DNA of 64,000 nucleotides from contig JAEPNO010000007.1 of NCBI GenBank assembly GCA_017643365.1, forward strand, positions 62,001-126,000, written 5' to 3'. A program made the translations under genes and the position numbers. Positions 17,025 to 33,722 of the stretch are shown here, piece after piece. Every line of letters starts with the position of its first letter. Positions within the stretch are counted from its first letter, which is position 1. Under the pieces are notes generated by a model. It saw nothing but the letters and a program-made list of their open reading frames with translations. It was not told where the DNA came from and searched no databases. The DNA is from Balneolaceae bacterium (GTDB taxonomy: Bacteria; Bacteroidota; Rhodothermia; Balneolales; Balneolaceae).

Positions 17025-17029
17025 GACTT

Positions 17030-18127: not shown

Positions 18128-18130
18128 CAA

Positions 18131-19234
18131 ATGGTGAATCAAGTACAATCTAACAGTACAATAGGAATAAAAAGATTATCTCAAGCTGATTTAGGTACAA
18201 GTGATACAAGTAATTTGACGCACATAGGACTTTTTGACGGTACTTTAAACTTTCTTGAATCAAGACCACAAATTTTATCTTCTCAGTTGATTTATCAAAA
18301 TCAAACTATAGATTTGCTTGCGATACTTGACTTTATTCAAAATCCAGATGGAACTTTTAGAAGTCCAAAAATTAGATTGGGTCACGAATGGGAATTAAAT
18401 CAAACCGGAGTGAGAGTTAACTCTGTTGTGAGAGCAATTAGAGAAATTGCTCAAACTTCTCAATCAGAATGGTATTTGCTATGGTTTGGTTTAGACACAA
18501 ACGAATTGATTTTTTTTCTGTTCAACCGAGACTCGCAAGAATATAATGATGTTCGAGCTATAACTGGTACAATTGAAACTCGTAAGCAAATTTCGAACGT
18601 GTCCACTGAATTTACCCAGCTTATTACATATCTTAATGATAAAGTTGAGAGAGTTAATCTCGAATATTATCAAGAACTTGAGATAGTATCACAAACAAGT
18701 ACCGAACAAATTACGAGAAGAATAATTCCGAGAATAAGGGATTTAGAAAAAGCTAATAAAATTTTTAAAGAGACAGGACGAAAAGGCGAACAATTGCTGT
18801 TTCAACATTTTGAACTTCAAAAAGAAAATGGCTTCATAAAAGACTTCAAATGGTTAAATCAAAGTAAAGAATCTGGAATGCCCTACGATTTTGAAATCAC
18901 TGAGTTTAATAACACAGTAAAATTCTCCGATTCAAAGGCAACTAAATATATGTTCGAGCAACCAATTATTTTAAGCTCAAGTGAACTTCACTTTATTCAT
19001 CAAAATAAAACAGATTATCTAATACATAGAGTTTACAACTTGGATAATGAGCCAAAGTTGCGAGTTTGTAGGAACATCTCAACTATTTCAGATATTTTTA
19101 TACCAAACTTTCAGCTATTTAATGGTTCATTAACGCCTAATAGATTAAGCATAAAAAGCTTAAATATTGCAGTACCAACAGACTTGAATAATCTTACATT
19201 TGAAAATGAAATTGATTTAAATTTCAACAAATAG
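18131..19234 (+). CDS. Putative restriction endonuclease, NOV/DUF3883-like PD-(D/E)XK C-terminal domain
   Basis: A 367-residue protein of no family I recognise over its N-terminal half, encoded 3 bp after two cytosine methylases. Residues about 215-320 resemble the DUF3883/NO-VEIN C-terminal nuclease fold. GRKGEQLLFQ is the opening helix and MPYDFEI carries the first acid (Asp253). FSDSKATK puts Asp267-Ser-Lys269 where the family has Glu-Val-Lys. SSSELHF and YLIHRVYNL correspond to the later S..E and Y.IYRV signatures. A conserved (D/E)xK supports an active metal-dependent nuclease. The N-terminal 200 residues would then recognise the target. Restriction function is inferred from context and this motif. 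Confidence 0.68.
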   Translation: MVNQVQSNSTIGIKRLSQADLGTSDTSNLTHIGLFDGTLNFLESRPQILSSQLIYQNQTIDLLAILDFIQNPDGTFRSPKIRLGHEWELNQTGVRVNSVVRAIREIAQTSQSEWYLLWFGLDTNELIFFLFNRDSQEYNDVRAITGTIETRKQISNVSTEFTQLITYLNDKVERVNLEYYQELEIVSQTSTEQITRRIIPRIRDLEKANKIFKETGRKGEQLLFQHFELQKENGFIKDFKWLNQSKESGMPYDFEITEFNNTVKFSDSKATKYMFEQPIILSSSELHFIHQNKTDYLIHRVYNLDNEPKLRVCRNISTISDIFIPNFQLFNGSLTPNRLSIKSLNIAVPTDLNNLTFENEIDLNFNK

Positions 19235-19327
19235 GGGCATACACAATCGCTAAAGCTAAAGCGCATCCAAAACTGGTGATAGTATGTCTCAGCCAACACT
19301 ACAAACTGAACTTAACCCAGCTCTTCT

Positions 19328-19386
19328 GCATCAAATAATTGAGGCAATGTGAACGAACCTTCCATTCTGATTTTGGGCGCCAGAGC
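19328..19386 (+). repeat. 59-bp direct repeat, copy 1 (truncated duplicate of the ATP-grasp gene start)
   Basis: It matches 22576-22634 at 57 of 59 positions. It carries the GTG start and the first 12 or so codons of the ATP-grasp gene (NEPSILILGARA), after which an in-frame TAG stops it. The two copies flank the segment with the hydrolase, HNH protein and HigBA. One substitution changes Phe to Ser, the other lies upstream of the start. Confidence 0.9.
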
Positions 19387-19390
19387 GTAG

Positions 19391-19490
19391 TAGCATGGAC
19401 AAAGACATGGACATAGTGTCCATGCTAATGGTGGTGATTGTAGATGAAAAGCTAAGCATGGACATAAACTTGGACATGATGTCCAAGCTA
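19391..19490. repeat. Two tandem palindromic units with compensatory changes
   Basis: Unit 1 (19391-19427) begins TAGCATGGACA and ends TGTCCATGCTA; unit 2 (19453-19490) begins TAAGCATGGACAT and ends ATGTCCAAGCTA. Each contains an inner palindrome: CATGGACA-TAG-TGTCCATG in unit 1 and CTTGGACAT-G-ATGTCCAAG in unit 2. Between units the inner arms change A to T on the left and T to A on the right, so pairing is kept. They lie 5 bp beyond repeat copy 1. They could be a protein-binding operator or a REP-like hairpin element. Confidence 0.75.
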
Positions 19491-19666
19491 ACGATCATTA
19501 TGGAATAAATTGATCCATTCATAGTAAATCAGGTTTTGAAGAACAAATACTATTCAACAGAAAAAAGAAATAATAGCCGGTACACAACAATACTTATACG
19601 CAATACCTTTTTAGGACACTGCGCATAATCAATCCAATTAATTGTTGCATTGTAATCCCCACCCCC

Positions 19667-20623
19667 ATGAAAACCCTTATCAACTCAGCTAAGATCGTAG
19701 GTATTGGTATTGGGGTTTTGGCTGTCCTCGTTACTGCGTTTTTTGGGCATCGGAATATTCCATTGGATGAACTGAAGGCGAAGTATGCGACGGAAGAAGC
19801 CTCTTCTTTTGTGTCGGTGAATGGCATGGAGGTTCATCTTCGCGATGAGGGCCCTTCCACCGATTCCATCCCCATTGTGCTCATTCACGGCACGGGTTCA
19901 AGTCTGCACACCTTTGATGATTGGGCAGCGCGACTTAGAAGTGACTACCGTGTGATACGCATGGATCTTCCGGGCTATGGGCTCACCGGTCCCTTTCCCC
20001 ATCGCGATTATTCCTTAGAACGCTATGTGGAGTTTCTGCATGATTTTTTGGCTGAACTGGGCGTTGAGCAATGCGTTCTGGCGGGCAACTCGCTGGGCGG
20101 TGGTATCGCGTGGAGGTTTACGGTTGATCACCCCGAAATGGTGGATAAACTGATCTTAATTGATGCATCCGGCTATCCATCCAAAGAAGAAAGCACTCCC
20201 CTTGCTTTTAAAATTGCACGGCTGCCCGTAGTTAAGCACCTGTTCACTTTTATCACACCTCGGGCTGTCGTGCAGTCTAGCGTTGAGAATGTGTACGCCG
20301 ACAAAGCCAAAGTGTCCGATGCCCTGGTGGATCGTTATTTTGAGCTATCGCTCAGAGAAGGCAACCGTAAGGCTTTTATCGATAAATTTGAAGCTGAAAA
20401 TGACACCGCTGCCTATCATACCATAAAACAGATCCGGCAGAACACGCTGGTGCTGTGGGGCGATCAGGATCAACTGATTCCGTCCGAACGAGCGTACCAA
20501 TTCCACCACGACCTCCCCAACGACACTCTGGTAATTTTAAAAAATGTCGGACACGTACCGATGGAAGAAAGCCCCGATCAAAGTGTAGAGGTGGTCCTTT
20601 CGTTTCTACAGAAAAGCATGTAG
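19667..20623 (+). CDS. Membrane-anchored alpha/beta hydrolase
   Basis: Alpha/beta-hydrolase-fold enzyme of 318 residues. An N-terminal hydrophobic helix (about residues 9-27) probably anchors it in the membrane. The oxyanion segment is LIHGTGSS. The nucleophile elbow is GNSLGG with Ser142. The acid is probably the Asp in WGDQDQLIP, and the catalytic His is in VGHVPMEE. The complete triad indicates an active hydrolase, but the substrate (ester, lactone or C-C bond) cannot be read. Its codon use and base composition resemble the chromosome, unlike its A+T-rich neighbours. It lies between the two 59-bp repeats. Confidence 0.85.
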   Translation: MKTLINSAKIVGIGIGVLAVLVTAFFGHRNIPLDELKAKYATEEASSFVSVNGMEVHLRDEGPSTDSIPIVLIHGTGSSLHTFDDWAARLRSDYRVIRMDLPGYGLTGPFPHRDYSLERYVEFLHDFLAELGVEQCVLAGNSLGGGIAWRFTVDHPEMVDKLILIDASGYPSKEESTPLAFKIARLPVVKHLFTFITPRAVVQSSVENVYADKAKVSDALVDRYFELSLREGNRKAFIDKFEAENDTAAYHTIKQIRQNTLVLWGDQDQLIPSERAYQFHHDLPNDTLVILKNVGHVPMEESPDQSVEVVLSFLQKSM

Positions 20624-20833
20624 AAAATTGGCGGTATCTAAGACACAAATAAAGCGAACGCCATGAATCATATAAACCGGATTCTTCGTCCGACTTCATC
20701 ATTTTCATAAATAAATACGAGGTTGCCAACCTTCGCATGCTCTACTTCTCCTACCTAATTATTTAATTGCTTAGGCAATCTTAAATATTAGTTTTAATGT
20801 TACCTATAATCTATAAACTTATAATTTTATAGC

Positions 20834-21526
20834 ATGGCAAGAATCCATTGCACAATACAAGAATATCATCGTTTTCTTGGACCATTGATTAGAAATAAAG
20901 TTAATTCTTTAACTAGAAAAGAACGCCTATCACGAAATAAGATTTGTGAATTTTGTGGAGATAAAAGTGAATTGGAGTCTGCGCATATTCATGGGAAAGG
21001 AAGAAAAAAAATCATCGAATATGTACTCAATGAATATTTATCTGATAATTATGTTCATGGAAATTTACTCGAAATAGAAAAGAAAATAATCGAAGCTCAT
21101 TTACCGCTTGAAAGTACATTCAAATTTATCTGTAAACCTTGTCATACTCTTTATGATAAAAACAAGCACCCAGATCTTACCATTCAAGAGAAACCTGCAC
21201 CAATTAATAGCAATTTAACAGAATACTCAGATTTCAAAAAACTAAACCGAATTGAACTATGGTCTAAAAGAAAACACCAAACAAACCATAAGATGATTAA
21301 AGCATTTTTGGAATTATCTTTAAAACAAAAAGTCACTTTTGAGCAATTAAAAAATATTTGTACCAATAAGAAATATGAAATTGACGAAAAGAAATTTCTA
21401 GGCAATTATTTGTCTATGAAAACTGACAAAGGTAATTCTCATGGTAAAGTGTTTTTTGAAAATAATGGATATATAGAAATATATCCCGTTGTAATGAATG
21501 AAATAAAAGAATACTTCAATACATAG
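20834..21526 (+). CDS. HNH-type zinc-finger protein, possible nuclease
   Basis: A 230-residue protein with the layout of an HNH endonuclease core. CEFCG (first Cys pair, about residues 38-41) is followed by LESAHIHGKG with the first His, then about 60 residues later by FICKPCHTLYDK (second Cys pair and final His). The remaining C-terminal half is lysine-rich and unassigned. The gene is strongly A+T-rich, as expected for horizontally acquired defence or mobile-element genes. No partner methylase adjoins it; it stands alone between the hydrolase and the HigBA pair. Nuclease activity is inferred only from the HNH pattern. Confidence 0.6.
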   Translation: MARIHCTIQEYHRFLGPLIRNKVNSLTRKERLSRNKICEFCGDKSELESAHIHGKGRKKIIEYVLNEYLSDNYVHGNLLEIEKKIIEAHLPLESTFKFICKPCHTLYDKNKHPDLTIQEKPAPINSNLTEYSDFKKLNRIELWSKRKHQTNHKMIKAFLELSLKQKVTFEQLKNICTNKKYEIDEKKFLGNYLSMKTDKGNSHGKVFFENNGYIEIYPVVMNEIKEYFNT

Positions 21527-21643
21527 TTAATAATAGATTTAAGGCGTCTCGATAGGTTGTAAGTAGTACTAATTGAATATCACAAAGTTTACTTTCAACG
21601 ATACTTTGATTAAATTTGAAAAGTTAACATAACTGTAAACTTG

Positions 21644-21973
21644 ATGACTCAACGATTTGAAGTCGAACTCCTTGAAGAGGCTTACGAATTTCTTAAAAAG
21701 TTAGATCTCAAGCATCGAAAGAAGATTCTACAGAATATGGATCGAGCTAAATTTCATACCGATCCGAAACTGTTTAAGAAACTCGATGGTGAAATATGGG
21801 AATTCCGAACCCTTTATTCCGGTAAACAATATCGTTTTCTTGCCTTCTGGGATAAGACTAAACCAACAAACACAATGGTTATCGCAACTCATGGGTTCAT
21901 CAAGAAAAAAAGTAAGGTTAACAAAAAGGAAATCGACAAAGCTGAACGAATTAGACAGCAATATTTTAATTAA
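21644..21973 (+). CDS. HigB/RelE-superfamily toxin (Gp49-like)
   Basis: Small basic protein of 109 residues in the RelE/ParE fold, Gp49/HigB branch, which cleaves mRNA on ribosomes in studied members. It shows LEEAYEFLKKLD at the start, then KFHTDPKLFKKLDGEIWEFRTLYSGKQYRFLAFWD, given here as three adjoining conserved pieces: FKKLDG, WEFRTLYSG and QYRFLAFW. It ends in THGFIKKKSKVNKKEIDKA, a hallmark of the family. The ATG at 21644 is chosen over a TTG three bases earlier. The antitoxin gene starts 6 bp after the stop, giving the toxin-first order typical of HigBA. Confidence 0.88.
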   Translation: MTQRFEVELLEEAYEFLKKLDLKHRKKILQNMDRAKFHTDPKLFKKLDGEIWEFRTLYSGKQYRFLAFWDKTKPTNTMVIATHGFIKKKSKVNKKEIDKAERIRQQYFN

Positions 21974-21979
21974 GGCGCG

Positions 21980-22270
21980 ATGAAACGATATTCACTTGAC
22001 CAAACGAAAGACGATCTGATTGGTAAGATTGGAACTGAAGAACGAGACCAATATGAGTTCGAACTTAAACTCGAGTTGATTGGCGACATGATTCAACATA
22101 CTAGAAAACAACGCAACTTAACTCAGCAGCAGCTGGGCGAACTTATTGGGGTAAAGAAGTCTCAAATTTCAAGGCTCGAGAACAATACGGGAAACGTAAC
22201 AATAGAAACGGTTCTAAAGGTGTTCAACGCTCTTGAGGCTAGGGTGAGTTTTAATGTCAAAATGATTTAG
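21980..22270 (+). CDS. HigA-type XRE antitoxin
   Basis: Helix-turn-helix protein of 96 residues encoded directly after the toxin. The HTH lies at about residues 37-70: RKQRNLTQQQLGELIGV followed by KKSQISRLENN. The C-terminal FNALEARVSFNVKM is the short strand region seen in HigA-like antitoxins. Such proteins neutralise the toxin by binding it and repress the operon, usually through a palindrome near the toxin start; none is obvious here on inspection. The pair could stabilise the surrounding acquired DNA. Confidence 0.88.
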   Translation: MKRYSLDQTKDDLIGKIGTEERDQYEFELKLELIGDMIQHTRKQRNLTQQQLGELIGVKKSQISRLENNTGNVTIETVLKVFNALEARVSFNVKMI

Positions 22271-22596
22271 GAGTGAGCTTTGAGAGGTGATAGATTATAT
22301 AAACGAGAGAAAGATTTACCTCTATGCTTTAAACAAGGGTAAAAAAATGGAATTTTTACCTTCGAACAACAAGGTGATGAGATCAACTACCAATAATAGT
22401 ACTTCCTTGATTCAAATGGTTTTTGCTCCAAAGCTTTAAATCGCTATTCTCAGGTTTAACACTGTAGATAGATTGAATAAATACCATGTCTCACTTTTAG
22501 GCTTTTACTCTGAAATCTCAAGCACCCATTTCTGTGTTCTTTCACTTTGCTAACTTGCCGTAGTTCTTTATGTTGGCATCAAATAATTGAGACAAT
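22271..22596. other. Intergenic stretch after HigBA
   Basis: No gene seen. It holds a hairpin GGTAAAAA (22338-22345) with TTTTTACC (22353-22360), which may end the toxin-antitoxin transcript although no T-run follows. About 200 bp of A+T-rich sequence without a clear pattern follow. The stretch ends in copy 2 of the 59-bp repeat, which contains the start of the ATP-grasp gene. Confidence 0.5.
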
Positions 22597-22634
22597 GTGA
22601 ACGAACCTTTCATTCTGATTTTGGGCGCCAGAGC
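22576..22634 (+). repeat. 59-bp direct repeat, copy 2 (intact start of the ATP-grasp gene)
   Basis: This is the copy continuous with the functional gene. It begins 21 bp upstream of the GTG start and extends through codon 12. It matches copy 1 (19328-19386) at 57 of 59 positions. The 3.2 kb between the copies carries the alpha/beta hydrolase, HNH protein and HigBA genes. Confidence 0.9.
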
Positions 22635-23685
22635 TCCTATCGCGCTGGAGCTGGCTCGCAGTTTTCATCAACGCGGTTGCACCGTGATTCTGGCTGATTC
22701 CCTTCGGTTTCCGGTGAGTAGGTTTACAAACACCATCCAACGCTACGAGCGACTCCCAAAGGTGCGTCGGGATGCACAAAGCTATATTACCGCAGTTTCT
22801 GCATTGATTGAGCGCTATCAAATCGATCACCTCATCCCCACCTGCGAGGAGGCTTTTTATGTGGCTCAATTCAAAGAACATTGGAAGTGCAAAGTATGGA
22901 CGCCCGATATTGCACTGATGGATGCCCTCCACAACAAAGAAACCTTCGCGTCGGAATTCAGCAAGTTCCTGAATATTCCCGAAACCATATCTGCAGAGAC
23001 TTTTTCGGATTGGTCACACAGCAAAGACTTCGTTTTTAAGCCGAAATATTCGCGCTTTGGCAGTCGCACCATCATCAACAAAAGCATCACTGCTCAACAG
23101 TTTAGCGAACCACAAAAATGGATCGCACAGAAGAAAGTGGTCGGAAAAGAAGTCTGTGTGTATTCCATCTGGAATGACGGAACTCTTACCGGATATTCCT
23201 GCTATTCCCCCACTTTTCGGGCGGGAATGGGATCAGGGATTTTCTTTGAGCCGGTCGATCATCCACAAATAAAAGAACAAGTACAGCGATTTGGGGAAGC
23301 AATTCGTTTTACCGGTCAACTCAGTTTCGATGTGATGGTTTCGGGCGATGCAATCTGGCTTCTCGAATGTAATCCGCGTGGAATGAGCGGTGCGCACCTG
23401 CTGAATGATCAGCTCGCAAACTGCTTTCTGGGTACCGGAGAAAAGGAATCAGATAAATCGGGCTGCTACAAATTATCGAGCGTCATGTGGTTCACACATC
23501 CGCTAAAATGCTTCACCAAAAAAGTGCGCAAAGCAACAGACGTGGTGTTTCGAATCAACGATCCTTTACCGGCACTTTTGCAATGGCTGAGCGTGCTGGA
23601 ACTGGTGTTCATCAAATTTTCGAAGGGAATATCCTTACTGGAAACCACAACTTTTGATATCGAGTGGAATGGCCATGAAGATTAG
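22597..23685 (+). CDS. ATP-grasp carboxylate ligase
   Basis: Cytoplasmic ATP-grasp enzyme of 362 residues that would activate a carboxylate as acyl-phosphate and join it to an amine or thiol. It opens with a Rossmann-like ILGARAPIALELARSF. The ATP-binding region includes FVFKPKYSRFGSR, and WIAQKKVVGKEVCVYS gives the grasp lid. LLECNPRGMSG carries the metal-binding Glu and Asn. It resembles CarB-like or amino-acid ligases but the substrate is not readable. The start is GTG at 22597, since the nearby ATG at 22595 is followed immediately by a stop in its own frame. The stop overlaps the next gene by about 17 bp. First gene of a six-gene cluster. Confidence 0.85.
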   Translation: MNEPFILILGARAPIALELARSFHQRGCTVILADSLRFPVSRFTNTIQRYERLPKVRRDAQSYITAVSALIERYQIDHLIPTCEEAFYVAQFKEHWKCKVWTPDIALMDALHNKETFASEFSKFLNIPETISAETFSDWSHSKDFVFKPKYSRFGSRTIINKSITAQQFSEPQKWIAQKKVVGKEVCVYSIWNDGTLTGYSCYSPTFRAGMGSGIFFEPVDHPQIKEQVQRFGEAIRFTGQLSFDVMVSGDAIWLLECNPRGMSGAHLLNDQLANCFLGTGEKESDKSGCYKLSSVMWFTHPLKCFTKKVRKATDVVFRINDPLPALLQWLSVLELVFIKFSKGISLLETTTFDIEWNGHED

Positions 23686-24787
23686 ATGGGCGGAACCGCA
23701 TGAGATCAAGGGTAAGGTTCGGGCGTTCAGTACCATGTTCGAAGCAGATTCTCATCTTCTTATCGAAAATGTGCACACCCAATACCGCGTGTTGTATATA
23801 AATGAGGAACTGTTTTTTCCGGTCACCATCAACCACACCGAATGGGATAACGCCTTTGTGTGCTCGCCTTATTCGGCCTATGCTGAGTATTCTAAAGAAG
23901 AAGTTCAGTGGACTATCAGCAATCCTGTGCTGCGATTTTTCCTGTTTTTGGTGATTCGATCCATTGCCGGATGGCTGAAGCGGGGCGAGTTCAACAAAAA
24001 CGTGCACGTGAATAATTACCTGCTGTCGACCAACCCGTATCCGGAGTGGAGCGGCAACGAAATTGCAGAAATCACGGACTTCCTGAAGTCTGAATTTCCC
24101 GATCACGCCATCATCTTCCGTTCACTGAATGAATATCAACACAGGCATTTATTATCCGAATTCGAAGCTCATCAGTACGAAAAAGTCGGGAGTCGGCAGG
24201 TGTATATTTTTGATCTGACCAAAGAAGCCTGGCTGAAACATCGGAATAACAAACACGACAATAAGTTGATTCGAAAATCGGGGCTTCGTTTGATCGAGCA
24301 CGACCAAATGAAAGCATATCTGCCGCAAGCTTTGGAATTGTATAGCGCCCTTTACTTAGAAAAATACTCGAAATTGAATCCGCAGTTTACGCTCCGATAT
24401 TTCAACGAATGCTACGATGCCGGACTCATCGAATTTCAGGGCTACATCGACGAAAGCGGGAATCTGAAAGCATTTTCGGGTCAGTTTATAGTGGATAACA
24501 CCATCACTTCTCCCCTTGTCGGCTACGATACAAACGCTCCCCGCGAACAAGGTTTGTACATCCACGCGGCGCAACTGGCGATTTTAAGTAAGTTCAAAAA
24601 AGGATTATTGCTCAATCTGAGTTCAGGCGCGGCCGAATTTAAACGTTTGCGCGGTGGCGAAGCATCCATCGAATATTCCGCGGTTTGCATCCATCATCTT
24701 CCCAAAAAGAGACAACGTCGCTGGAAAGCCATTAAATTTGTTTCGAATAAAATTGGGGTCCCGATCATTAAAAAGTACAAGCTATGA
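23669..24787 (+). CDS. GNAT-like acyltransferase
   Basis: A 372-residue protein starting at ATG 23669 (ATG 23675 is equally possible) inside the end of the ATP-grasp gene. The C-terminal half resembles a GNAT/FemAB acyltransferase fold: HNKHDNKLIRKSG-type basic stretch, then FQGYIDESGNLKAFSGQF, PREQGLYIHAAQLAIL and LLNLSSGAAEFKRLRGG, which match the acceptor and CoA- or tRNA-contacting strands of that superfamily. The N-terminal 150 residues include a hydrophobic segment (LRFFLFLVIRSIAGWL) that could touch the membrane. The assignment is moderate; no exact family is recognised. It may acylate the product or intermediate of the cluster. Confidence 0.55.
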   Translation: MAMKIRWAEPHEIKGKVRAFSTMFEADSHLLIENVHTQYRVLYINEELFFPVTINHTEWDNAFVCSPYSAYAEYSKEEVQWTISNPVLRFFLFLVIRSIAGWLKRGEFNKNVHVNNYLLSTNPYPEWSGNEIAEITDFLKSEFPDHAIIFRSLNEYQHRHLLSEFEAHQYEKVGSRQVYIFDLTKEAWLKHRNNKHDNKLIRKSGLRLIEHDQMKAYLPQALELYSALYLEKYSKLNPQFTLRYFNECYDAGLIEFQGYIDESGNLKAFSGQFIVDNTITSPLVGYDTNAPREQGLYIHAAQLAILSKFKKGLLLNLSSGAAEFKRLRGGEASIEYSAVCIHHLPKKRQRRWKAIKFVSNKIGVPIIKKYKL

Positions 24788-24866
24788 AACGGGGATCCGA
24801 CTATATTCGGACTTTGTACGATCACCCGAACGACCGTAATCAACATCGAATGATAGCTGGAGTTTT

Positions 24867-25856
24867 ATGAATGTGTTATTAACCGGAGCAACCGGATTTT
24901 TAGGCTGGCGAACGCTGGAGGCATTGGTCAACGATCCTGCGATTGATAACATCGTTGCAACCGGCAGAACGCTAAAACTAACGCACACCGTTGCCCACAA
25001 AAAAGTGACGTATCGGCTGGGCGAGCTGGAAAACAAGGACTTTGTTGAAAGTCTATTCGTGAATATTGATGCGGTGGTAAATGCGGCGGCGCTTTCCTCG
25101 CCGTGGGGAGATCAAGAGGTGTTTGAGACCGCCAACGTGCATACTCAACGCAATTTGATTGAAGCTGCAAAAAGACATGAGATTCAGCGCTTCGTGTATA
25201 TTTCGACTCCCAGTTTGTACTTCAATTTCAGTGATCGTTTTGAGGTGAAAGAAGACGATCCTTTGCCTCAGACGTTGGTGAATCACTATGCCGAAACCAA
25301 GCGAAAAGCCGAGCTTTTACTCATGGAATCGGAGTTGCCGCACATCATTCTACGTCCCCGTGCGATTATCGGTCGCGGCGATACGGTGATCATGCCACGC
25401 CTCATCCGAGCGGTGGATGACGGTCGTTTAAAAATCATCGGCGATGGAAAAAACGTCGTCGATCTAACATCAGTTGCAAATGTAGCCCAGGCCATTTTGC
25501 TTTCGTTGAAGTCCGAAAACGAATCTTCACTCAACGAAATTTATAATATCTCCAATGGCGCTCCGGTGGTGCTTTGGGATGCTATTTCCGAAGTGTTAAC
25601 GCGATTGGGAAGAACAGCACCGAATCGAAAAGTCCCCTATCGATTGGTAAAATGGGTGGCTCAATTTCTAGAGTTTAAATCTAGAATGACCAACAACGAA
25701 GAACCCGTTTTAACGCAATATGGAGTTGGAACACTCGCTTTTTCTCTTACTTTAGATATTTCAAAAGCGAAGAACTTATTGGGCTATCAACCCACGGTGA
25801 GCACCGAAGAAGCCATCGACGAATTTGTAAACTGGTACCAAGATCATGAAGGTTAG
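24867..25856 (+). CDS. Extended SDR oxidoreductase, 3-beta-HSD/OleD-like
   Basis: NAD(P)-dependent extended short-chain dehydrogenase of 329 residues. The cofactor motif is TGATGFLG at residue 6. NAAALSSPW is the adenine-ring region. The catalytic Ser lies in YISTPSLYF, and the Tyr and Lys in HYAETKRKAE (YxxxK). RPRAIIGRGD is the substrate-side loop typical of 3-beta-hydroxysteroid dehydrogenase and of OleD, which reduces 2-alkyl-3-ketoacids in olefin and beta-lactone biosynthesis. A GGAG Shine-Dalgarno lies 9 nt before the ATG. The gene begins 79 bp after the GNAT-like gene and overlaps the metallohydrolase by 11 bp. Confidence 0.85.
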   Translation: MNVLLTGATGFLGWRTLEALVNDPAIDNIVATGRTLKLTHTVAHKKVTYRLGELENKDFVESLFVNIDAVVNAAALSSPWGDQEVFETANVHTQRNLIEAAKRHEIQRFVYISTPSLYFNFSDRFEVKEDDPLPQTLVNHYAETKRKAELLLMESELPHIILRPRAIIGRGDTVIMPRLIRAVDDGRLKIIGDGKNVVDLTSVANVAQAILLSLKSENESSLNEIYNISNGAPVVLWDAISEVLTRLGRTAPNRKVPYRLVKWVAQFLEFKSRMTNNEEPVLTQYGVGTLAFSLTLDISKAKNLLGYQPTVSTEEAIDEFVNWYQDHEG

Positions 25857-26691
25857 TAAGCTTTATCTGGGCTACGCGGGCTTTTGCTATGCGAAAGAAA
25901 ATCATGCGATAACAACGGGCCGAAATCAGGAGGTGAAGTTTAAGGCACTTTGGGGATTAATCGAGCATCCCACCGAAGGATACGTGCTGTTTGATACCGG
26001 CTACACCGAGCGATTTTATGAAGCTACCAGGCAGTATCCGAGTAAGATTTACGCTCAGCTTACAAAGGTGAATATCAAGCCCGAAGAAGAGGTTAAGGCG
26101 CAATTGCTTGCTTATGATATTTCGCCTGAATCCATCAAACATGTGTTCGTTTCGCATTTTCATGCCGATCACGTGGGCGGACTCAAAGACTTTCCCAATG
26201 CCACCATTCATGCTTCGCGAAAGGCGGTGGATCAGCTGAAAAATGTCTCCAGGACTTTCGGCTTTACCAAAGGAATACTCACCGATCTTATCCCCGACGA
26301 TTTGATGAACCGAGTATCTTTTATTGATAAAAAGCCCAGGGTTCAGATTCCCGTTTTTGGTCAGGCTTTCGATGTATTTGGGGATGGTCATCTTATTGCA
26401 GTTCCGCTTCCGGGTCATGCGGCCGGACAAATGGGACTTTTGCTCACGACCAAAAAACACACCTACTTTTTGATTGCCGATGCCTGTTGGTTGAAGGAAT
26501 CATACCAACAAGGAACCCTACCCAATTCTATGGTTCGATTATTTTTCGATTCCTGGCCGGAGTTTAAATCGACTTTGACGAAAGTGATGGAATTCCACAA
26601 ACTCGAGCCTTCCACTCTGATCATTCCCACGCATTGCGCCGAAACCACCGATCCGTTAGTAAGTCCTACCATTGATTTAGATGTACTTTAA
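25846..26691 (+). CDS. Metallo-beta-lactamase-fold hydrolase
   Basis: Zinc hydrolase of 281 residues in the lactonase-like branch of the metallo-beta-lactamase superfamily. Metal ligands are visible: HFHADH in VSHFHADHVGG, the His of LPGHAAGQMG, the Asp in LIADACW and the final His in IPTHCAE. This set resembles N-acyl homoserine lactonases such as AiiA, so the substrate may be a lactone or thioester. It starts 11 bp inside the SDR gene and ends 11 bp inside the adenylate-forming enzyme gene, so the three are translationally coupled. In this cluster it could release or edit the condensation product. Confidence 0.88.
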   Translation: MKVSKLYLGYAGFCYAKENHAITTGRNQEVKFKALWGLIEHPTEGYVLFDTGYTERFYEATRQYPSKIYAQLTKVNIKPEEEVKAQLLAYDISPESIKHVFVSHFHADHVGGLKDFPNATIHASRKAVDQLKNVSRTFGFTKGILTDLIPDDLMNRVSFIDKKPRVQIPVFGQAFDVFGDGHLIAVPLPGHAAGQMGLLLTTKKHTYFLIADACWLKESYQQGTLPNSMVRLFFDSWPEFKSTLTKVMEFHKLEPSTLIIPTHCAETTDPLVSPTIDLDVL

Positions 26692-27964
26692 ACTTCAGAT
26701 TTTACTTGCCCTCATCAAGTTGCGGCTTGCTAAATGGTGGTACAAAAACAAGCTGGATAAGCTTCGCGAAAAACGCTGGAAATCCCTTCAGAAGCAATTA
26801 CTTCACTCCCCTTTTTATCAAAAATTGGTGTTGAATAAAACTCCGTTGGACGATTACCCGATCATGGATAAATCGGCCTTCATGGCTAGTTTCGATAAGA
26901 TAAATACGGTTGGTATCAAACTCTCTGAGGCGCTAAAGGTGGCCGAAAAGGCAGAACAACAACGTGATTTCTCCCCAACGTTGAATGGCATCACCATTGG
27001 GTTGTCGTCAGGCACAAGTGGAAACCGAGGGATATTTATGGCAAGTCAGGCCGAAAGAGCAAACTGGGTGGCATGCATTTTAGATCGGGTAATTGGGATT
27101 TCATTCAAGAAAAGAAGCGTGGCTTTTTTCCTGCGGGCAAACAGCAATCTGTATAGTTCGGTATCGTCCCGATTATTAAAGTTTTCGTTTTTCGATATCC
27201 TACAACCGATGGATCAACACATCGAAGCATTAAACGCATTACAGCCAAGCATTTTGGTGGCACAACCCAGTGTTCTGCTTGAAATTGCTGCTTGTATCGA
27301 GGAAGGAAAAGTCTCAATCTCTCCTGCTAAAATAATTTCTGTCGCTGAGGTGCTCACCCCCGAAGACGCCCGAAATTTAGAAGGCGTTTTCAATCAGACC
27401 ATCCATCAGGTATATCAATGTACCGAAGGATTGCTTGCCACCACTTGTGAACACGGCAAGCTGCATTTCAACGACGACTTTCTGATCATCGAAAAGAAAT
27501 ATCTTGATGAAGAAAAGAAGCGATATCACCCCATCATCACCGATCTGCTTCGCACATCCCAACCGATCATCAGGTACGAATTGAACGATATTATTCATGA
27601 AAAAAATGACTGTCCGTGCAGAAGTACTTTTACGGCCATCGAAATGATCGAAGGTCGTTCGGATGACGTATTGGTTTTTAGATCGAATGAGAACAAGTCC
27701 GTTAAGATTTACCCCGATTTTATCCGGCGGGAGATCATACTCACTCATCCTTCCATTCAGGATTACACCGTGATTCAAAAAAGTGAATCCATAATAGAAT
27801 TATATGTGGGAAAAAGCCAATTTTTTGATAAAGTTAAGCAAAGGCTTCAAAGCTTTCTGAGATCGCAAGGAATTGATACTGTGGAGATCCGACAATCGTT
27901 ATCTCGAAATCATAGACAGGGCAAAAAATTAAGACGGGTACAGAATGAGTCACAAAAAAATTAG
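26681..27964 (+). CDS. Adenylate-forming enzyme, F390-synthetase/phenylacetate-CoA-ligase-like
   Basis: Adenylating enzyme of 427 residues, shorter than standard acyl-CoA ligases but normal for the coenzyme F390 synthetase/phenylacetate-CoA ligase branch. The phosphate-binding loop is GLSSGTSGNRG at about residue 107. YQCTEG is the A5 motif, RYELNDI the A7 region, and EGRSDDVL the hinge motif. The C-terminus is lysine- and arginine-rich (GKKLRRV), where the catalytic Lys of the mobile domain usually sits. It would convert a carboxylate to an acyl-adenylate or thioester. It overlaps both neighbours (11 and 20 bp), placing it firmly in the cluster. Confidence 0.83.
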   Translation: MYFKLQILLALIKLRLAKWWYKNKLDKLREKRWKSLQKQLLHSPFYQKLVLNKTPLDDYPIMDKSAFMASFDKINTVGIKLSEALKVAEKAEQQRDFSPTLNGITIGLSSGTSGNRGIFMASQAERANWVACILDRVIGISFKKRSVAFFLRANSNLYSSVSSRLLKFSFFDILQPMDQHIEALNALQPSILVAQPSVLLEIAACIEEGKVSISPAKIISVAEVLTPEDARNLEGVFNQTIHQVYQCTEGLLATTCEHGKLHFNDDFLIIEKKYLDEEKKRYHPIITDLLRTSQPIIRYELNDIIHEKNDCPCRSTFTAIEMIEGRSDDVLVFRSNENKSVKIYPDFIRREIILTHPSIQDYTVIQKSESIIELYVGKSQFFDKVKQRLQSFLRSQGIDTVEIRQSLSRNHRQGKKLRRVQNESQKN

Positions 27965-28937
27965 CATCGATGGTACCGGAATGTACCTCCCGAAGGCGGT
28001 TTCTTCAGATTCGATTGAAACGAAGTATGGGATACCAAAAGGTTGGAGCAAACGATATTCAGGGGTAAAAAGCAGGCATCACGTAACCGACGAAACCAAC
28101 GGTTTGATGGGCGCCCGAGCCGCTGAAGATGCGCTGAAATCTGCAACCGTAGGACTGGCCGACATCGACATGCTGATATCAGCGAGTGGGAGTTTCGATT
28201 ACCCGATTCCTAATCAAGCCAGCATGATTAAGCATCATTTAACCGACGGCAATTCGTACGATTTCCCTGCCATCGATATTGATGTTACATGTTTAAGTTT
28301 TGTGGCAGCGATGGATATGGCTTCAAGAATTTTAGACGGAATCACCTATTCCCGCATCCTCATTGTGTCGTCAGAAATAGCCTCGAAAGGACTGGATTCC
28401 TCAAATTTTGAAACCACCACTTTATTTGGCGATGGCGCAGCGGCCGTGGTGTTATCTTTCAATCCGGATGGAAATTCAACATTCATAAAAGGTCAATTTA
28501 AAAACCATTCGGAAGGAGCTTTTTATTCTATCATCGAGGGCGGCGGAAATGTGAATCATATCAGCGAGAAACCCTATAATGAAGGGCTCTATTCCTTTAA
28601 AATGGAAGGCAAGAAGTTACTCCGACAGGCTAAAACCATCATACCTACTTTTGTCGATGGCTTCTTCAGCGACATCCCATTTTCACTCGATGAGGTTGAT
28701 GTTATCATACCGCATCAGGCCTCTAGAGCCGGCTTAGAGATGTTTAAACGAATGCATCCAACCAGTGCATCAAAAATCATTGATACCCTCGCAGAAACCG
28801 GAAATTGTATTGCGGCATCCATCCCAATTTCGTTGCATATGGCCATTCAAGAGGGAAAACTAAACAAAGGCGACACCTGCTTGTTGATCGGTACCGGAGC
28901 CGGACTTTCGATTGGGGCATTGCTGTTAGAATATTAG
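27945..28937 (+). CDS. 3-oxoacyl-ACP synthase III-like condensing enzyme
   Basis: Thiolase-superfamily condensing enzyme of 330 residues. The FabH triad is intact: Cys116 in DIDVTCLSF, His257 in IPHQAS and Asn287 in GNCIAASIP. GDGAAAVVLS and GTGAGLSIGALLLE are the structural glycine motifs of ketosynthase III. It is not in a fatty-acid operon, and no acyl carrier protein is present in the cluster, so it probably uses CoA esters or a remote carrier protein. It may act like OleA or other specialised KAS III enzymes. Last gene of the six-gene cluster; it begins 20 bp inside the adenylate-forming enzyme gene. Confidence 0.9.
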   Translation: MSHKKISIDGTGMYLPKAVSSDSIETKYGIPKGWSKRYSGVKSRHHVTDETNGLMGARAAEDALKSATVGLADIDMLISASGSFDYPIPNQASMIKHHLTDGNSYDFPAIDIDVTCLSFVAAMDMASRILDGITYSRILIVSSEIASKGLDSSNFETTTLFGDGAAAVVLSFNPDGNSTFIKGQFKNHSEGAFYSIIEGGGNVNHISEKPYNEGLYSFKMEGKKLLRQAKTIIPTFVDGFFSDIPFSLDEVDVIIPHQASRAGLEMFKRMHPTSASKIIDTLAETGNCIAASIPISLHMAIQEGKLNKGDTCLLIGTGAGLSIGALLLEY

Positions 28938-29057
28938 TTAGCGTTCAATCATCACTTCAATATTTATTGACCGTCTTATTTAAAATTTGTACCGTTTCCT
29001 GCAACTCAAGGTTGTTTAGTTAAACAATTTAGCTCCCTTTTCAAATATTCTCATTGG

Positions 29058-29486
29058 ATGAATCCAACCGATCAACATATCAGAGAGATTGCAGAGTTAC
29101 TTGAATGCGACCTCCTTTGCTTTTTTCATAAGCAAACAGGAGAAATTAAACATTATCCAAATCCTGATAATGCCTTCTTCGAAATTGAATTCTGGCAAGA
29201 AATAATAGATTCTATTGAAGCTGAAAGGTCGAATTATTTTTCTTTTGAAGTGATGTCATCCTATCAAAAATTTCAAGTGATGGAAAACTTCGCTTACTCA
29301 ATATCGAATGAAAACGACCGCCATAACTTGATCAGTGTGCTATCTAATGCAAAGCCATTTCGAAATTTTAAACAAGCAATTAAACGTTCAGTTTATCTTC
29401 AGGATTGGTACAATTTTCAAAAAGAAGCCTACATTCAATGGGTAAAAAAACAATTGTATATCCAAATCTCATTAAATGATGATTAA
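29058..29486 (+). CDS. UPF0158 family protein
   Basis: A 142-residue cytoplasmic protein matching the UPF0158 pattern: an opening helix IREIAELLECD, a tGEIKHYPN strand, a central SYQKFQVMENFAYSI and the late FRNFKQAIKRSVYLQDWYNFQ pieces (conserved pfr.FK and W..F). The function of the family is unknown. It has no operon partner by overlap; the aldo-keto reductase starts 14 bp downstream on the same strand, so cotranscription is possible. Confidence 0.75.
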   Translation: MNPTDQHIREIAELLECDLLCFFHKQTGEIKHYPNPDNAFFEIEFWQEIIDSIEAERSNYFSFEVMSSYQKFQVMENFAYSISNENDRHNLISVLSNAKPFRNFKQAIKRSVYLQDWYNFQKEAYIQWVKKQLYIQISLNDD

Positions 29487-29500
29487 CCACCACACATTCC

Positions 29501-30442
29501 ATGCGCTATAATTCATACATCAAGAACGCAATTCCAATCTCTGAAATCGGTCTTGGTGCCTGGCAACTGGGTATTAATTCCGGTTGGAAAAATCTGAGTG
29601 AATCCGAAGCCATCAACATGGTGCACACCGCTCTGGATTCGGGAATAAATTTTATCGATACCGCTCCTAATTATGGGAATGGAACCAGTGAAACTCGATT
29701 GGGAAAAGCCTTGGCAGGTGTGGATCGGAGTAGCTTTGTGATTAACACAAAATTCGGACATACCGATACCGGAGTCACTAATTATGATGCTAGTTACATT
29801 CGAGAATCGCTGGAAGGTAGTTTAAAGCGACTACGAACCGATTACGTGGATTCGATCATTATTCACAGTCCACCATTCGAGTATCTGGATGGAAATAAGA
29901 ACGATCATTATGAAATTCTGGAGAAATTGAAGGACGAAGGTAAAATCAAAGCCTACGGGGCTTCGCTCGATACCGCCGAAGAAATGAAGCTGTTTATGGA
30001 AACCACCGGTTGCGAAGTGATCGAAGCTTTCTTCAATATTTTGTATCAGGATGCGGTGAATGCATTTGATATGGCTTTGGAAAAAGAAGTGGGAATCATT
30101 GCTAAAATCCCCTTCGATTCAGGCTGGCTGACCGGAAAATATGACGAAGACAGCACATTTGAGGGCATTCGCTCGCGTTGGTCGAAAGATGACATCAAAA
30201 CAAGAGCCAAGTTAGTTCAAAGAATCCAACAGATCATAGGCGATGAACTCAGCATCGCACAAGTCGCTCTATCCTGTTGTCTGGCTTTCGATGCCGTTTC
30301 TACAGTCATACCCGGCAACACAAGTATCGATCAGCTTAACCGAAATATCGAAAGTGTATCGAAGCCAATTCCGAGTAATTTGGTTTCTGAGCTTCGGGAG
30401 TTTTATTCGGCTGAGGTTAGAGATCTTAACTTGCCTTGGTAA
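29501..30442 (+). CDS. Aldo/keto reductase
   Basis: NADPH-dependent aldo-keto reductase of 313 residues with a TIM-barrel layout. The catalytic set is recognisable: Asp and Tyr in FIDTAPNYGNG, Lys in VINTKFGH and His in SIIIHSPP. GVSAL-type features of sugar or xenobiotic aldehyde reductases are present as IKAYGASLDTAEE. The C-terminal nucleotide-binding loop is TVIPGNTSIDQLNRN. It is similar to YajO/YhdN-class oxidoreductases; the substrate cannot be told from sequence. It is on the same strand as the UPF0158 gene and followed by a 104-bp gap. Confidence 0.9.
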   Translation: MRYNSYIKNAIPISEIGLGAWQLGINSGWKNLSESEAINMVHTALDSGINFIDTAPNYGNGTSETRLGKALAGVDRSSFVINTKFGHTDTGVTNYDASYIRESLEGSLKRLRTDYVDSIIIHSPPFEYLDGNKNDHYEILEKLKDEGKIKAYGASLDTAEEMKLFMETTGCEVIEAFFNILYQDAVNAFDMALEKEVGIIAKIPFDSGWLTGKYDEDSTFEGIRSRWSKDDIKTRAKLVQRIQQIIGDELSIAQVALSCCLAFDAVSTVIPGNTSIDQLNRNIESVSKPIPSNLVSELREFYSAEVRDLNLPW

Positions 30443-30546
30443 ATAAGTGCACGTCGGTGTATGCTTACAAATCTCGAGACTTAGTTTAATTTGTGAATTA
30501 AAATTCCATGACGTTTCTTTGTGCAAATTATTAACCCTTTGTACTT

Positions 30547-31860
30547 ATGAAACTACCCAGAATTGCTTTCTTCGCGTTACTTTTAATTTTCTGTTCTTCA
30601 TCTGCTTTTGCACAATCCACTTCACTCATTCATGCCGGTAAATTATTAGCTGTACCGGGAGACGATGTTCAGACCGAAAAAACCATTGTGATAAAACAAG
30701 GAATGATTTCGGCTGTCGAGGATGGATATTTATCTGCTGAGGATCTTTCTTTATCTGACTCAGAAGTTCAAATTATTGACCTTTCTGATAAATTTGTACT
30801 CCCGGGTTTAATTGATATGCACACCCATATCACCAACGAGCGTGATCCTGAAGTAAATCCACATGAATGGTTAACCCTGTATGATGAAGATTTCGCCTAT
30901 GAAGCAATTCCATTTCTGGAGGCAACACTGCAGGCAGGCTTCACCACTGTACGCAATCTTGGCGCAGCTTACACTACGATTAACGCGATCAAAAGAGCCG
31001 TTAATAAAGGACTGATTGAAGGTCCACGGATTATTTCTGCTTCCGGTGGGATTTCAGCTACCGGCGGACATGGAGATTTCCATGGTTATCGTTCGGAAGT
31101 GATTAATGCATTTGAAGAAAGTGTAGGCATTTGTGATGGAGCTGATGACTGTAGCCGTGCTGTTCGGGCAGTCGTAAAACAAGGAGCTGATGTTATCAAA
31201 ATTACAGCAACGGGCGGTGTTTTAAGTAATACTGCCGCTGGTGTTGGTCAACAATTAACCGATGAAGAATTAGAAGCAATAGTTAAAACTGCCAACATGC
31301 TCGGACGAAAAGTAGCGGCTCATGCTCATCAAGCCGGAGGAATAAATGCAGCCTTGGAAGCCGGGGTACATTCCATCGAACACGGCTCTTATTTAGACGA
31401 TCGTTCGGTTGAATTATTTAATGAAACGGGAGCTTATCTAGTTCCAACACTACTTGCCGGAGTAGTATTACTGGAAGAAATGGAAGTAAATGATGACATC
31501 CCTCCTGCCATTGTTGCTAAGATTAAAGAAGTAATTCCTAATGTTGAAGCCGCTTTTAAACGCGCCTTAGACGGAGGCGTAAATATTGCTTTTGGTACCG
31601 ATTCGGGAGTGAGTAAACATGGAACCAACGCCCGCGAGTTTGAACTGATGGTTGCTTACGGCATGAGTAACGAAGAAGCGATCAAATCAGCCACCATTTA
31701 TGCATCCGATCTGTTGGGGATGAGCAACTTCTTAGGAACGTTAGAGGCAGGGAAATTTGCGGATATCATTGCCGTAGATGAAAATCCGTTAGAGGATATC
31801 TCATCACTAAAAGAAGTACAATTTGTTATGAAACAGGGCAAAGTTTACTCTAACAAATAA
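30547..31860 (+). CDS. Secreted amidohydrolase (Xaa-Pro dipeptidase/imidazolonepropionase-like)
   Basis: Metal-dependent amidohydrolase of 437 residues with a signal peptide ending SSAFAQ near residue 23, so it acts in the periplasm or outside. Metal ligands and catalytic residues are in place: HxH in DMHTHI, the bridging Lys in IKITATGG, His in AAHAHQAGG, His in SIEHGSY and Asp in FGTDSG. The C-terminal beta-sandwich residues (LEAGKFADIIAVDENPLED) are typical. Family members hydrolyse Xaa-Pro dipeptides or cyclic amides, so a periplasmic dipeptidase is plausible. It is followed 30 bp later by a serine hydrolase gene on the same strand. Confidence 0.88.
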   Translation: MKLPRIAFFALLLIFCSSSAFAQSTSLIHAGKLLAVPGDDVQTEKTIVIKQGMISAVEDGYLSAEDLSLSDSEVQIIDLSDKFVLPGLIDMHTHITNERDPEVNPHEWLTLYDEDFAYEAIPFLEATLQAGFTTVRNLGAAYTTINAIKRAVNKGLIEGPRIISASGGISATGGHGDFHGYRSEVINAFEESVGICDGADDCSRAVRAVVKQGADVIKITATGGVLSNTAAGVGQQLTDEELEAIVKTANMLGRKVAAHAHQAGGINAALEAGVHSIEHGSYLDDRSVELFNETGAYLVPTLLAGVVLLEEMEVNDDIPPAIVAKIKEVIPNVEAAFKRALDGGVNIAFGTDSGVSKHGTNAREFELMVAYGMSNEEAIKSATIYASDLLGMSNFLGTLEAGKFADIIAVDENPLEDISSLKEVQFVMKQGKVYSNK

Positions 31861-31890
31861 CAGTAACTCATCCATTTTGCTAAATAAATA

Positions 31891-32877
31891 ATGATGTTTC
31901 GTTGTCAAACTTCAATGCTAATTGTTGTTTTAATCCTCTGTAAATCATCCTTGTTGTTTGCTCAAAATCCGACTGCGATTAACCAACAAGTGCTTGAAAG
32001 TTTAATAGCATTTAGCGAAGAAACTTACACCGACGAATTCATGCTTATTCAAAAGAATGAGACTTTGATTCACTGGAAAAACCCATCGTGCGATGCTCCT
32101 CAATTCAATACGGCTTCGATGGTTAAATCGTGGACGGGATTGGTGATTGGTTCACTCGTCGATAAAGGATTCATCGAAAGCGTAGATGATACCGTTTGCA
32201 CGTATTTACCCAATTGGGAAATAGGTTGCCGGGAGGACATCACCATAAAACAATTGCTTACGATGTCGGCCGGTTATAACCGTCGACCCGGTGCCAGCGG
32301 GATTCTTGCCCAACAGGATATGAACGAATATGTTCTAAACACCGAACCGGATACTTTGCAGGATGTGCGTTTCAGCTATTCAAACGAATCGGTTCAATTA
32401 CTTGGACTATTAATTGAAGAAATTACCGGAATGAATGCGAATGAGGCATTCATACAACATTTGTTCGAACCACTGGGGATGGATTCAACCCAATTGGGAA
32501 AAGACGAAGCAGGGAATTATATGGTTTTTGGTGGTGCTAAAACTACCCTTCAAGATGCGTCCAAAGTTGGTTTATTGATGGCGAACAAAGGCATGGTTGA
32601 TGGCAAACAAATGATTTCGCGAGAATGGATTGAACAATCAACATCAACTTCCGACAAAGCCGGTTATTATGGCTACTTGTGGTGGCTGGATAACAATTCA
32701 GAAAATAAAAACTTTGCTGCCATGGGCGATTTCGGTCAACTCACCATCTTATTTCCGGATCTCGATTTAGTGTACCTTCGTCAGCAAACGTGCAATAAAG
32801 AAGTAAGTGGCAATATGCCTTGGATGGGACCCGAACTGCTGAATTTAATTTCGGCTACAATTCAAACTGACGAGTAA
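31891..32877 (+). CDS. Secreted serine hydrolase (class C beta-lactamase family)
   Basis: Serine hydrolase of 328 residues in the beta-lactamase class C/penicillin-binding-like family, exported through an N-terminal hydrophobic signal ending LLFAQ near residue 25. The catalytic SxxK is SMVK (Ser76, Lys79) within NTASMVKSWTG, and the second motif is YSN in RFSYSNES. The third motif is not a clear KTG or HTG. Such proteins are usually esterases or D-aminopeptidases, not true lactamases. It is probably cotranscribed with the amidohydrolase 30 bp upstream. In contrast to the similar protein at 34971-36293, this active site is intact. Confidence 0.87.
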   Translation: MMFRCQTSMLIVVLILCKSSLLFAQNPTAINQQVLESLIAFSEETYTDEFMLIQKNETLIHWKNPSCDAPQFNTASMVKSWTGLVIGSLVDKGFIESVDDTVCTYLPNWEIGCREDITIKQLLTMSAGYNRRPGASGILAQQDMNEYVLNTEPDTLQDVRFSYSNESVQLLGLLIEEITGMNANEAFIQHLFEPLGMDSTQLGKDEAGNYMVFGGAKTTLQDASKVGLLMANKGMVDGKQMISREWIEQSTSTSDKAGYYGYLWWLDNNSENKNFAAMGDFGQLTILFPDLDLVYLRQQTCNKEVSGNMPWMGPELLNLISATIQTDE

Positions 32878-32945
32878 TCTTTCGTTATTTTAAAATTCAA
32901 AAGATTTCACAAGCCGAAACCTTTCATTACCTCTAGCTTTTCAAT

Positions 32946-33722
32946 ATGAATAATATCCTTCTTCAAGGCATCAATTTCGACGCTCATTCTTCCTTTCAAC
33001 AAGGTCCGGCCAAAGCCCCTGCTCTCATTCGAAAGGCATTCCATTCCGATTCGGGAAACAGCTACTCAGAAAGCCTGGACCTGATTGACAACACAGTTTT
33101 TCATGATGTCGGTGATTTCGATATTGATGCGTATTTCGATATCGAGTTCATCACCAGAGACAACCTTAAGCAAGCGGAAAAGCTTTTGACCTTAGGCGGC
33201 GATCATTCTATCACTTACCCCATCATGAAAGCGTATCGGGAAAAATATGAAAGCTTTGATATTCTTCAGATTGATGCCCATAGTGATTTATACCACGATT
33301 TTGAAGGGAATCCATATTCCCATGCTTGTCCATTTGCTCGCATTTTGGAAAACAAACTCGCCGATCGACTTGTACAAATAGGAGTTCGAACCTTGACCCC
33401 GCATCAACAAGAGCAAGCCGAAAAGTATGACGTGGAAGTGATAACTATGCAGGATTTTGATCCTTCAAATCTACCCAAGTTTGAACGACCGGTGTACCTT
33501 TCGTTAGACATGGACGGTTTCGATCCGGCGTTTGCTCCCGGAGTTTCGCATCACGAGCCCGGCGGCTTAAGCACTCGGGAAGTGTTGCGTATCATCCAAA
33601 GTATCAACGTCCCGATTATTGGCGCAGACATCGTGGAATACAATCCTGATCGGGATTTCCAAGAGATGACAGCCTACCTCGGAGCAAAAATGATGAAGGA
33701 AATCCTGGCTAAGATGATTTGA
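32946..33722 (+). CDS. Ureohydrolase (agmatinase/arginase family)
   Basis: Binuclear manganese ureohydrolase of 258 residues. All three metal-binding signatures are visible: LGGDHSI, DAHSDLYHDF and the SLDMDGFDP segment followed by PGVSHHEPGGLS. These place it in the SpeB-like agmatinase/arginase/formiminoglutamase family; the exact substrate is uncertain, and the length is at the short end of the family. It hydrolyses a guanidino group to urea or formamide. It precedes a PaiB-like gene by 42 bp; PaiB proteins are linked to polyamine-related functions elsewhere, which fits an agmatine role but does not prove it. Confidence 0.9.
   Translation: MNNILLQGINFDAHSSFQQGPAKAPALIRKAFHSDSGNSYSESLDLIDNTVFHDVGDFDIDAYFDIEFITRDNLKQAEKLLTLGGDHSITYPIMKAYREKYESFDILQIDAHSDLYHDFEGNPYSHACPFARILENKLADRLVQIGVRTLTPHQQEQAEKYDVEVITMQDFDPSNLPKFERPVYLSLDMDGFDPAFAPGVSHHEPGGLSTREVLRIIQSINVPIIGADIVEYNPDRDFQEMTAYLGAKMMKEILAKMI

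Follow-up and report, generated by a model that had tools for sequence, protein, structure and literature searches.

Introduction

CorB and MxnB are the chain-joining ketosynthases (KSs) of corallopyronin and myxopyronin formation, with a place at the end of the polyketide assembly lines. PqsA is an adenylate-forming enzyme, PqsD a 3-ketoacyl-acyl carrier protein synthase III (KAS III) and PqsE a metallo-beta-lactamase (MBL) thioesterase. The logic of OleA, OleC and OleD combines a condensing enzyme, an adenylate-forming enzyme and a short-chain dehydrogenase/reductase (SDR) (PMC7064751). OleA and PpyS are reported to use a catalytic glutamate (E117 and E105) that extends into the active site of the partner, and at its site MxnB and CorB have V94 (PMC4578411). 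Here we examine a cluster of six enzyme genes in a 64,000-nucleotide stretch (hereafter the window) of a Balneolaceae bacterium (GCA_017643365.1, contig JAEPNO010000007.1, positions 62,001 to 126,000). The genes encode an ATP-grasp ligase, a protein resembling Gcn5-related N-acetyltransferases (GNAT-like), an OleD-like SDR, an MBL-fold hydrolase, an adenylate-forming ligase and a KAS III-type KS. The cluster is best described as an amino-acid-module member of a widespread orphan family of biosynthetic clusters, transferable between phyla, for which our searches found no published product.

The cluster overlaps with the described systems only in part. With OleABCD it shares an OleD-like SDR, an adenylate-forming enzyme and a thiolase-fold condensing enzyme, but its KS lacks the OleA glutamate and is closer to CorB and MxnB, its ligase is PaaK-like, no alpha/beta-hydrolase (OleB) is among the six genes, and MBL, ATP-grasp and FemX-like (Fem-like) enzymes are present in addition. 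With CorB and MxnB the window KS shares the Cys-His-Asn triad and, at the site of the OleA glutamate, a hydrophobic residue; unlike those systems, the cluster has no gene for a polyketide synthase (PKS) or an acyl carrier protein (ACP), and for the ACP this agrees with an earlier note on this DNA, made from the sequence alone.

Results

An alignment of the ligase was used to scan 84,980 species genomes, and the best 80 of at least 594 candidate stretches were kept. Open reading frames (ORFs) called in these loci were compared with the six window proteins, and the counts for these six genes refer to the 54 loci with full flanks. Genes for the SDR, the MBL hydrolase and the KS adjoin the ligase gene on the same strand in 50 of the 54. 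Because the loci were picked by the ligase alone, this linkage is independent evidence, and across several phyla the four-gene core (KS, SDR, MBL and TIGR02304 ligase) stays together as one conserved unit. The ATP-grasp gene is found in 30 loci, the GNAT-like gene in 25 and all six genes in 23. Since the GNAT-like gene tracks the ATP-grasp gene (24 of 30 loci with it, 1 of 24 without it), the two form a second co-occurring module. The earlier note had taken the six genes for a real functional unit without assigning it a product, and had proposed a search for homologues of all six in other genomes; such homologues do co-occur, in several phyla, and the linkage of the core and of the full set bears the unit out.

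The neighbourhood centred on TIGR02304 (KS, SDR, MBL, ligase) is annotated gene by gene in public entries for Bacillota, Proteobacteria and E. coli. These neighbourhoods have the same four core genes as the window, side by side on one strand, and the window, with a ligase above the TIGR02304 cut-off adjacent to KS, SDR and MBL genes, belongs among them. They differ from it in their accessory genes, and gene order also varies: SDR-MBL-ligase-KS is the order in the window and most Bacteroidota, whereas the KS comes first in Bacillota and Proteobacteria. Clusters of Paenibacillus and Brevibacillus also have ATP-grasp and GNAT genes, and two Paenibacillus loci (L082 and L101) have two different ATP-grasp genes, one on either side of the SDR-MBL-ligase genes. 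Plasmid records with the same core come from Pontibacillus, Paenibacillus, Ketogulonicigenium, Pseudomonas and E. coli. The core is present in 672 of 5,426 complete E. coli genomes (about 1 in 8), including LF82 and ABU 83972. Its place in E. coli is between narI and the tRNA-Tyr genes beside purU. In LF82 (locus L129, 5001-11882; LF82_RS06520-06550) seven genes comprise the core, a PAP2 phosphatase, a sterol-desaturase-family protein and an acyl-CoA desaturase. Literature searches on F390 synthetase, TIGR02304, the enzyme combination, uropathogenic E. coli with desaturase, and FemXAB natural products returned nothing on the cluster; the mentions of 'F390 synthetase' that they found were in gene tables or concerned a different pathway.

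Among solved structures in the PDB the KS is closest to CorB (199.5 bits) and MxnB (197.5 bits), with FabH at 134 bits and chain 3row, the Xanthomonas OleA, at 66.8 bits. In the KS tree the cluster KSs together with CorB and MxnB split from FabH, including the genome's own FabH-type enzymes, with support of 100/100, and the CorB/MxnB pair is nested among the cluster KSs at an inner node supported by 85/81. A grouping with housekeeping FabH, which the earlier note had named as the outcome that would speak against its proposal, was therefore not seen, and the score against the NCBIfam fabH model (181.4 bits) is below the cut-off of 292.1. All 77 cluster KSs have Cys116, His257 and Asn287. The residue aligned to the glutamate of OleA and PpyS is Ile88 in the window KS and I, L or V in every one of the 77. 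The supposition that the KS is OleA-like accordingly fails, both on the missing glutamate and on the far better matches to CorB and MxnB. Without the glutamate, the KS is unlikely to condense two simple acyl thioesters in the manner of OleA, and the nucleophile is more likely to be a malonyl or beta-ketoacyl thioester.

When the six proteins were searched against NCBIfam, only the ligase exceeded its cut-off, with 448.3 bits against 251.9 for TIGR02304; it also matches PaaK-type models, and its nearest PDB proteins are phenylacetate-CoA ligases. In its loop GLSSGTSG (residues 107-114) seven of eight residues are at least 95% conserved, and the adenylation motifs and the C-terminal Lys416 are conserved as well. 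A possible zinc site is made up of C256, H262, C311 and C313, each of which is kept by at least 95% of 84 homologues. The MBL hydrolase has a complete dinuclear metal motif (HxHxDH plus H, D and H), whose ligands H104, H106, D108, H109, H191, D212 and H263 are shared by at least 95% of 75 homologues, and it scores below the cut-offs of the N-acyl-homoserine lactone (AHL) lactonases AttM (90.1 bits, cut-off 390) and AiiA (54.7 bits, cut-off 375). The SDR has a glycine motif, GATGFLG, at residue 7, and Y141 and K145 are at least 95% conserved (alignments of 71-84 homologues). The catalytic residues that had been named in the KS, the SDR, the MBL hydrolase and the ligase loop are thus all present and conserved. 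The Ole-like logic that the earlier note had proposed is another matter: the best curated match of the SDR is indeed OleD, albeit at 172.6 bits against a cut-off of 580, and with a PaaK-like ligase and a KS unlike OleA the analogy holds for the SDR only.

The two enzymes of the second module were placed mainly by their folds. Against the PDB the ATP-grasp sequence gave one weak short-chain-dehydrogenase match and nothing else; it matches Pfam ATP-grasp_3 and scores 302.9 bits against NCBIfam NF005315, below the cut-off of 406. Lys148, Asp245 and E257-C-N-P-R261 are invariant in a 27-row alignment. The folds nearest to its AlphaFold2 (AF2) model (predicted local distance difference test, pLDDT, 92.4) are 2pn1, which is like carbamoyl phosphate synthase (CPS-like; Z 25.2), and PylC (Z 23.1), followed by PurK and PurD, and an L-amino-acid ligase is among the Foldseek matches. 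With PylC and the CPS-like ligases the window protein shares the ATP-grasp fold and the conserved residues, at an identity of 12-18%. The GNAT-like sequence had no match in the PDB and the protein itself has no family match, while other members of its family match Acetyltransf_6 or FemAB_like. Its AF2 model (pLDDT 90.2) has the double-GNAT fold of the FemX/MprF type: FemX is nearest at Z 17.9, with Sbb17, an aminoacyl-tRNA-dependent peptide synthase, at Z 17.6 and MprF at Z 15.3, and other tandem GNATs reach only about Z 12-13. The shared fold spans most of the chain (Z 15-18), but identity to FemX, MprF and Sbb17 is only 11-14% and the gene context is different. The ATP-grasp and GNAT steps had been proposed to add an amino or acyl group; of these two, the modelled fold of the GNAT-like protein favours aminoacyl transfer over simple acylation.

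The Balneolaceae host acquired the cluster horizontally: the nearest relatives of the cluster are in Flavobacteriaceae, and an insertion that carries it is missing from relatives of the host. In the ligase tree the window lies within a Flavobacteriaceae group (Aestuariivivens, Aquimarina, Flavivirga) with support of 100/99, and the KS tree agrees. The TIGR02304 cut-off is exceeded in 2 of 98 genomes (the window's own, which is counted, and its relatives) and in 5 of 394 in a phylum-wide draw, the window's own again included. Synteny with G002, a genome of the same genus, breaks at window position 14853 and picks up at 32964 (about 18 kb, 14854-32963). In G033, from the same family as the host and with a ligase identical to that of the uncultured Balneola AG-896-M03 (Balneolaceae, Balneolota), 52 bp separate the sites that correspond to window positions 14846 and 36885. 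These breaks place the cluster within an insertion of about 18-22 kb. Base composition at the cluster (41-46% G+C) gives no clear island signal; the insertion is shown by synteny. At its left end (window 15305-19234) are genes for a helix-turn-helix (HTH) regulator, two adjacent C5-cytosine DNA methylases and a NOV_C-domain protein, which together resemble a restriction-modification locus.

The three closest flavobacterial clusters (L029-L031) have a Rieske oxygenase gene (Rieske and VanA_C domains) between the GNAT-like and SDR genes, exactly where the window has a 79-bp gap, and no close homologue of this oxygenase was found elsewhere in the window's genome (best 28% over 68 aa). We considered the gap as the remnant of a broken gene and dropped the idea, the relatives' gene there being complete (about 325 codons) and 79 bp too short for a meaningful remnant.

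Accessory genes vary clade by clade. Fatty-acid hydroxylase and sulfotransferase genes are each found in 18 loci, short-chain dehydrogenase genes in 11, Rieske oxygenase genes in 10, and fatty-acid desaturase and cupin genes in 7 each, with PAP2, DUF3419, acyltransferase and UDP-glycosyltransferase genes in a few; the recurrent neighbour families are FA_hydroxylase, FA_desaturase, Sulfotransfer_3, PAP2, DUF3419 and Acyl_transf_3. Such neighbours point to a hydroxylated, lipid-like scaffold. In a Balneolaceae relative (L128, 2352-10412) the core is followed by a sulfotransferase gene and by cysD- and cysN/C-like genes for sulfate activation, as read from their translations, which suggests a sulfated product for that cluster. 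The core in L035, L038 and L033 adjoins genes for a Rieske oxygenase and a DUF3419 protein. As DUF3419 includes BtaA-type 3-amino-3-carboxypropyl transferases, its position beside the core is a hint of a betaine-like head group.

The layout of the window cluster (Table 1) is as the earlier note had it, with six intact ORFs on the forward strand, junctions that overlap by 17, 11, 11 and 20 bp, and a single gap. A scan for promoters and terminators found fewer sites than in shuffled sequence. Directly upstream of the cluster (window 21641-22270) is a toxin-antitoxin-like pair, a Gp49-like protein of the RelE/HigB type and an HTH protein. A 59-bp direct repeat (97%) at window 19328-19386 and 22576-22634 duplicates the ATP-grasp gene's first codons along with its upstream edge; the core motif of the repeat is found at these two sites only, genome-wide. 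The 3.2 kb between the repeats may be an inserted segment that parts the operon from its original upstream region.

Table 1. Genes and intergenic gap of the six-gene cluster, in window coordinates
Feature	Position	Strand	Description
ATP-grasp ligase	22597-23685	+	362 aa; GTG start; PRK06849-like
FemX/MprF-type double-GNAT transferase (GNAT-like)	23669-24787	+	372 aa; ATG at 23669
79-bp gap between GNAT-like and SDR genes	24788-24866	+	
OleD-like extended SDR	24867-25856	+	329 aa; core gene
MBL-fold hydrolase, AHL-lactonase type	25846-26691	+	281 aa; core gene
PaaK-like adenylate-forming enzyme	26681-27964	+	427 aa; core gene; TIGR02304 'F390 synthetase-related protein'
KAS III-type KS	27945-28937	+	330 aa; core gene; CorB/MxnB side of the family

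Discussion

What might such a cluster make? Our tentative reading, to which we give slightly less than an even chance, is that the six genes are one horizontally acquired operon in which KS, MBL hydrolase, SDR and ligase make and activate an acyl acid and the ATP-grasp and Fem-like enzymes attach amino acids to it. The specialised metabolite would be small and probably lipid-like. From the enzyme classes and the conserved unit we infer the following substrates, order of steps and product. The CorB/MxnB-related KS would condense an acyl thioester with a thioester of the malonyl or beta-ketoacyl type since, lacking the OleA glutamate, it should need a carbon nucleophile that is already acidic. 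By analogy with the MBL thioesterase PqsE, the MBL hydrolase could then free the beta-keto acid from coenzyme A (CoA) or ACP, and the OleD-like SDR would turn the beta-ketone into a hydroxyl, such that the three enzymes together yield a beta-hydroxy (or fused) acyl acid. The PaaK-like enzyme would adenylate the carboxylate and hand the acyl group on as an ester or amide. In this variant of the cluster, the ATP-grasp enzyme and the FemX/MprF-fold transferase would add one or two amino acids, that of the transferase possibly from aminoacyl-tRNA, to give an aminoacylated acyl product. In related clusters, a scaffold of the same sort is probably sulfated, hydroxylated, desaturated, dephosphorylated, glycosylated or oxidised by a Rieske enzyme.

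Several points weigh against this pathway. The sequence does not fix the order of the steps from hydrolysis to amino acid attachment, and MBL enzymes of the AHL-lactonase type could be lactonases. Acyl-CoA-dependent folds also resemble the GNAT-like model, with tandem GNATs and N-myristoyltransferases at Z 12-13. Several loci have an ATP-grasp gene without the GNAT-like gene, or two ATP-grasp genes, which makes the two steps separable. The literature searches, finding no work on the cluster, also supply no product, substrate or transcript.

Enzymes of these superfamilies are individually common, and one might therefore take the cluster for a chance neighbourhood of housekeeping genes, but this is refuted by the linkage across phyla (50 of 54 loci for the core, 23 of 54 for all six genes), by the absence of the cluster from close relatives and by the distinctness of the KS from FabH, and we regard it as scarcely conceivable. 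The other alternatives concern what the core makes. If it followed Ole-like beta-lactone formation, the KS would give a 2-alkyl-3-keto acid, the SDR would reduce it, the ligase, like OleC, would close a beta-lactone, and this the MBL hydrolase would open or edit. The OleD match of the SDR and the presence of adenylate-forming, SDR and condensing enzymes fit the OleA/C/D logic (PMC7064751). We nevertheless think this route improbable, as the glutamate of the non-decarboxylative head-to-head condensation (PMC4578411) is missing from all 77 KSs, the window KS is much closer to CorB/MxnB and FabH than to OleA, the SDR is far under the OleD cut-off, and the models that the ligase matches are TIGR02304 and those of PaaK type.

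That closeness to CorB and MxnB raises the question of a two-chain fusion as in myxopyronin and corallopyronin, in which the KS would join two beta-ketoacyl chains and the MBL hydrolase, SDR and ligase would process the resulting pyrone or fused acid. These two enzymes are nearest to the KS among solved structures, are nested among cluster KSs and, like it, carry a hydrophobic residue at the glutamate site (V94 in CorB, I88 here). However, the nesting is modestly supported, the cluster has no PKS or ACP gene to supply beta-ketoacyl chains, and a pyrone would not need an SDR and a hydrolase, such that a fusion of this kind seems unlikely to us. A further model is a Pqs-like pathway to a diffusible signal: the ligase would activate a small acid, aromatic or otherwise, which the KS would extend with malonyl, the MBL hydrolase would free the beta-keto acid and the SDR would reduce it. 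Here the enzyme classes match PqsA, PqsD and PqsE, the PQS (Pseudomonas quinolone signal) biosynthetic enzyme 3h76 is among the KS matches, and the solved relatives nearest the ligase are phenylacetate-CoA ligases. But the desaturase, fatty-acid hydroxylase and PAP2 neighbours in related clusters point to a long acyl chain, and the operon has no regulator or receptor gene, and we consider a Pqs-like signal a poor prospect. The aminoacylated acyl product remains the reading that we favour.

The core spans several phyla and sits in those 672 E. coli genomes, yet the literature searches gave no product name. We speculate, while leaning a little against it, that it makes an undescribed, widespread class of aminoacylated lipid-like metabolites, built by the KS-MBL-SDR-ligase core and decorated clade by clade, with a different decoration in a sizeable share of E. 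coli strains. If so, the decorations would be an amino acid from aminoacyl-tRNA, sulfate, a hydroxyl, desaturation or a sugar. The pairing of a Fem-like transferase with an ATP-grasp ligase would, if true, mean that an aminoacylated acyl metabolite can be made by a new route. Because the accessory genes predict decorations that can be tested, a comparison of the variants could identify the scaffold.

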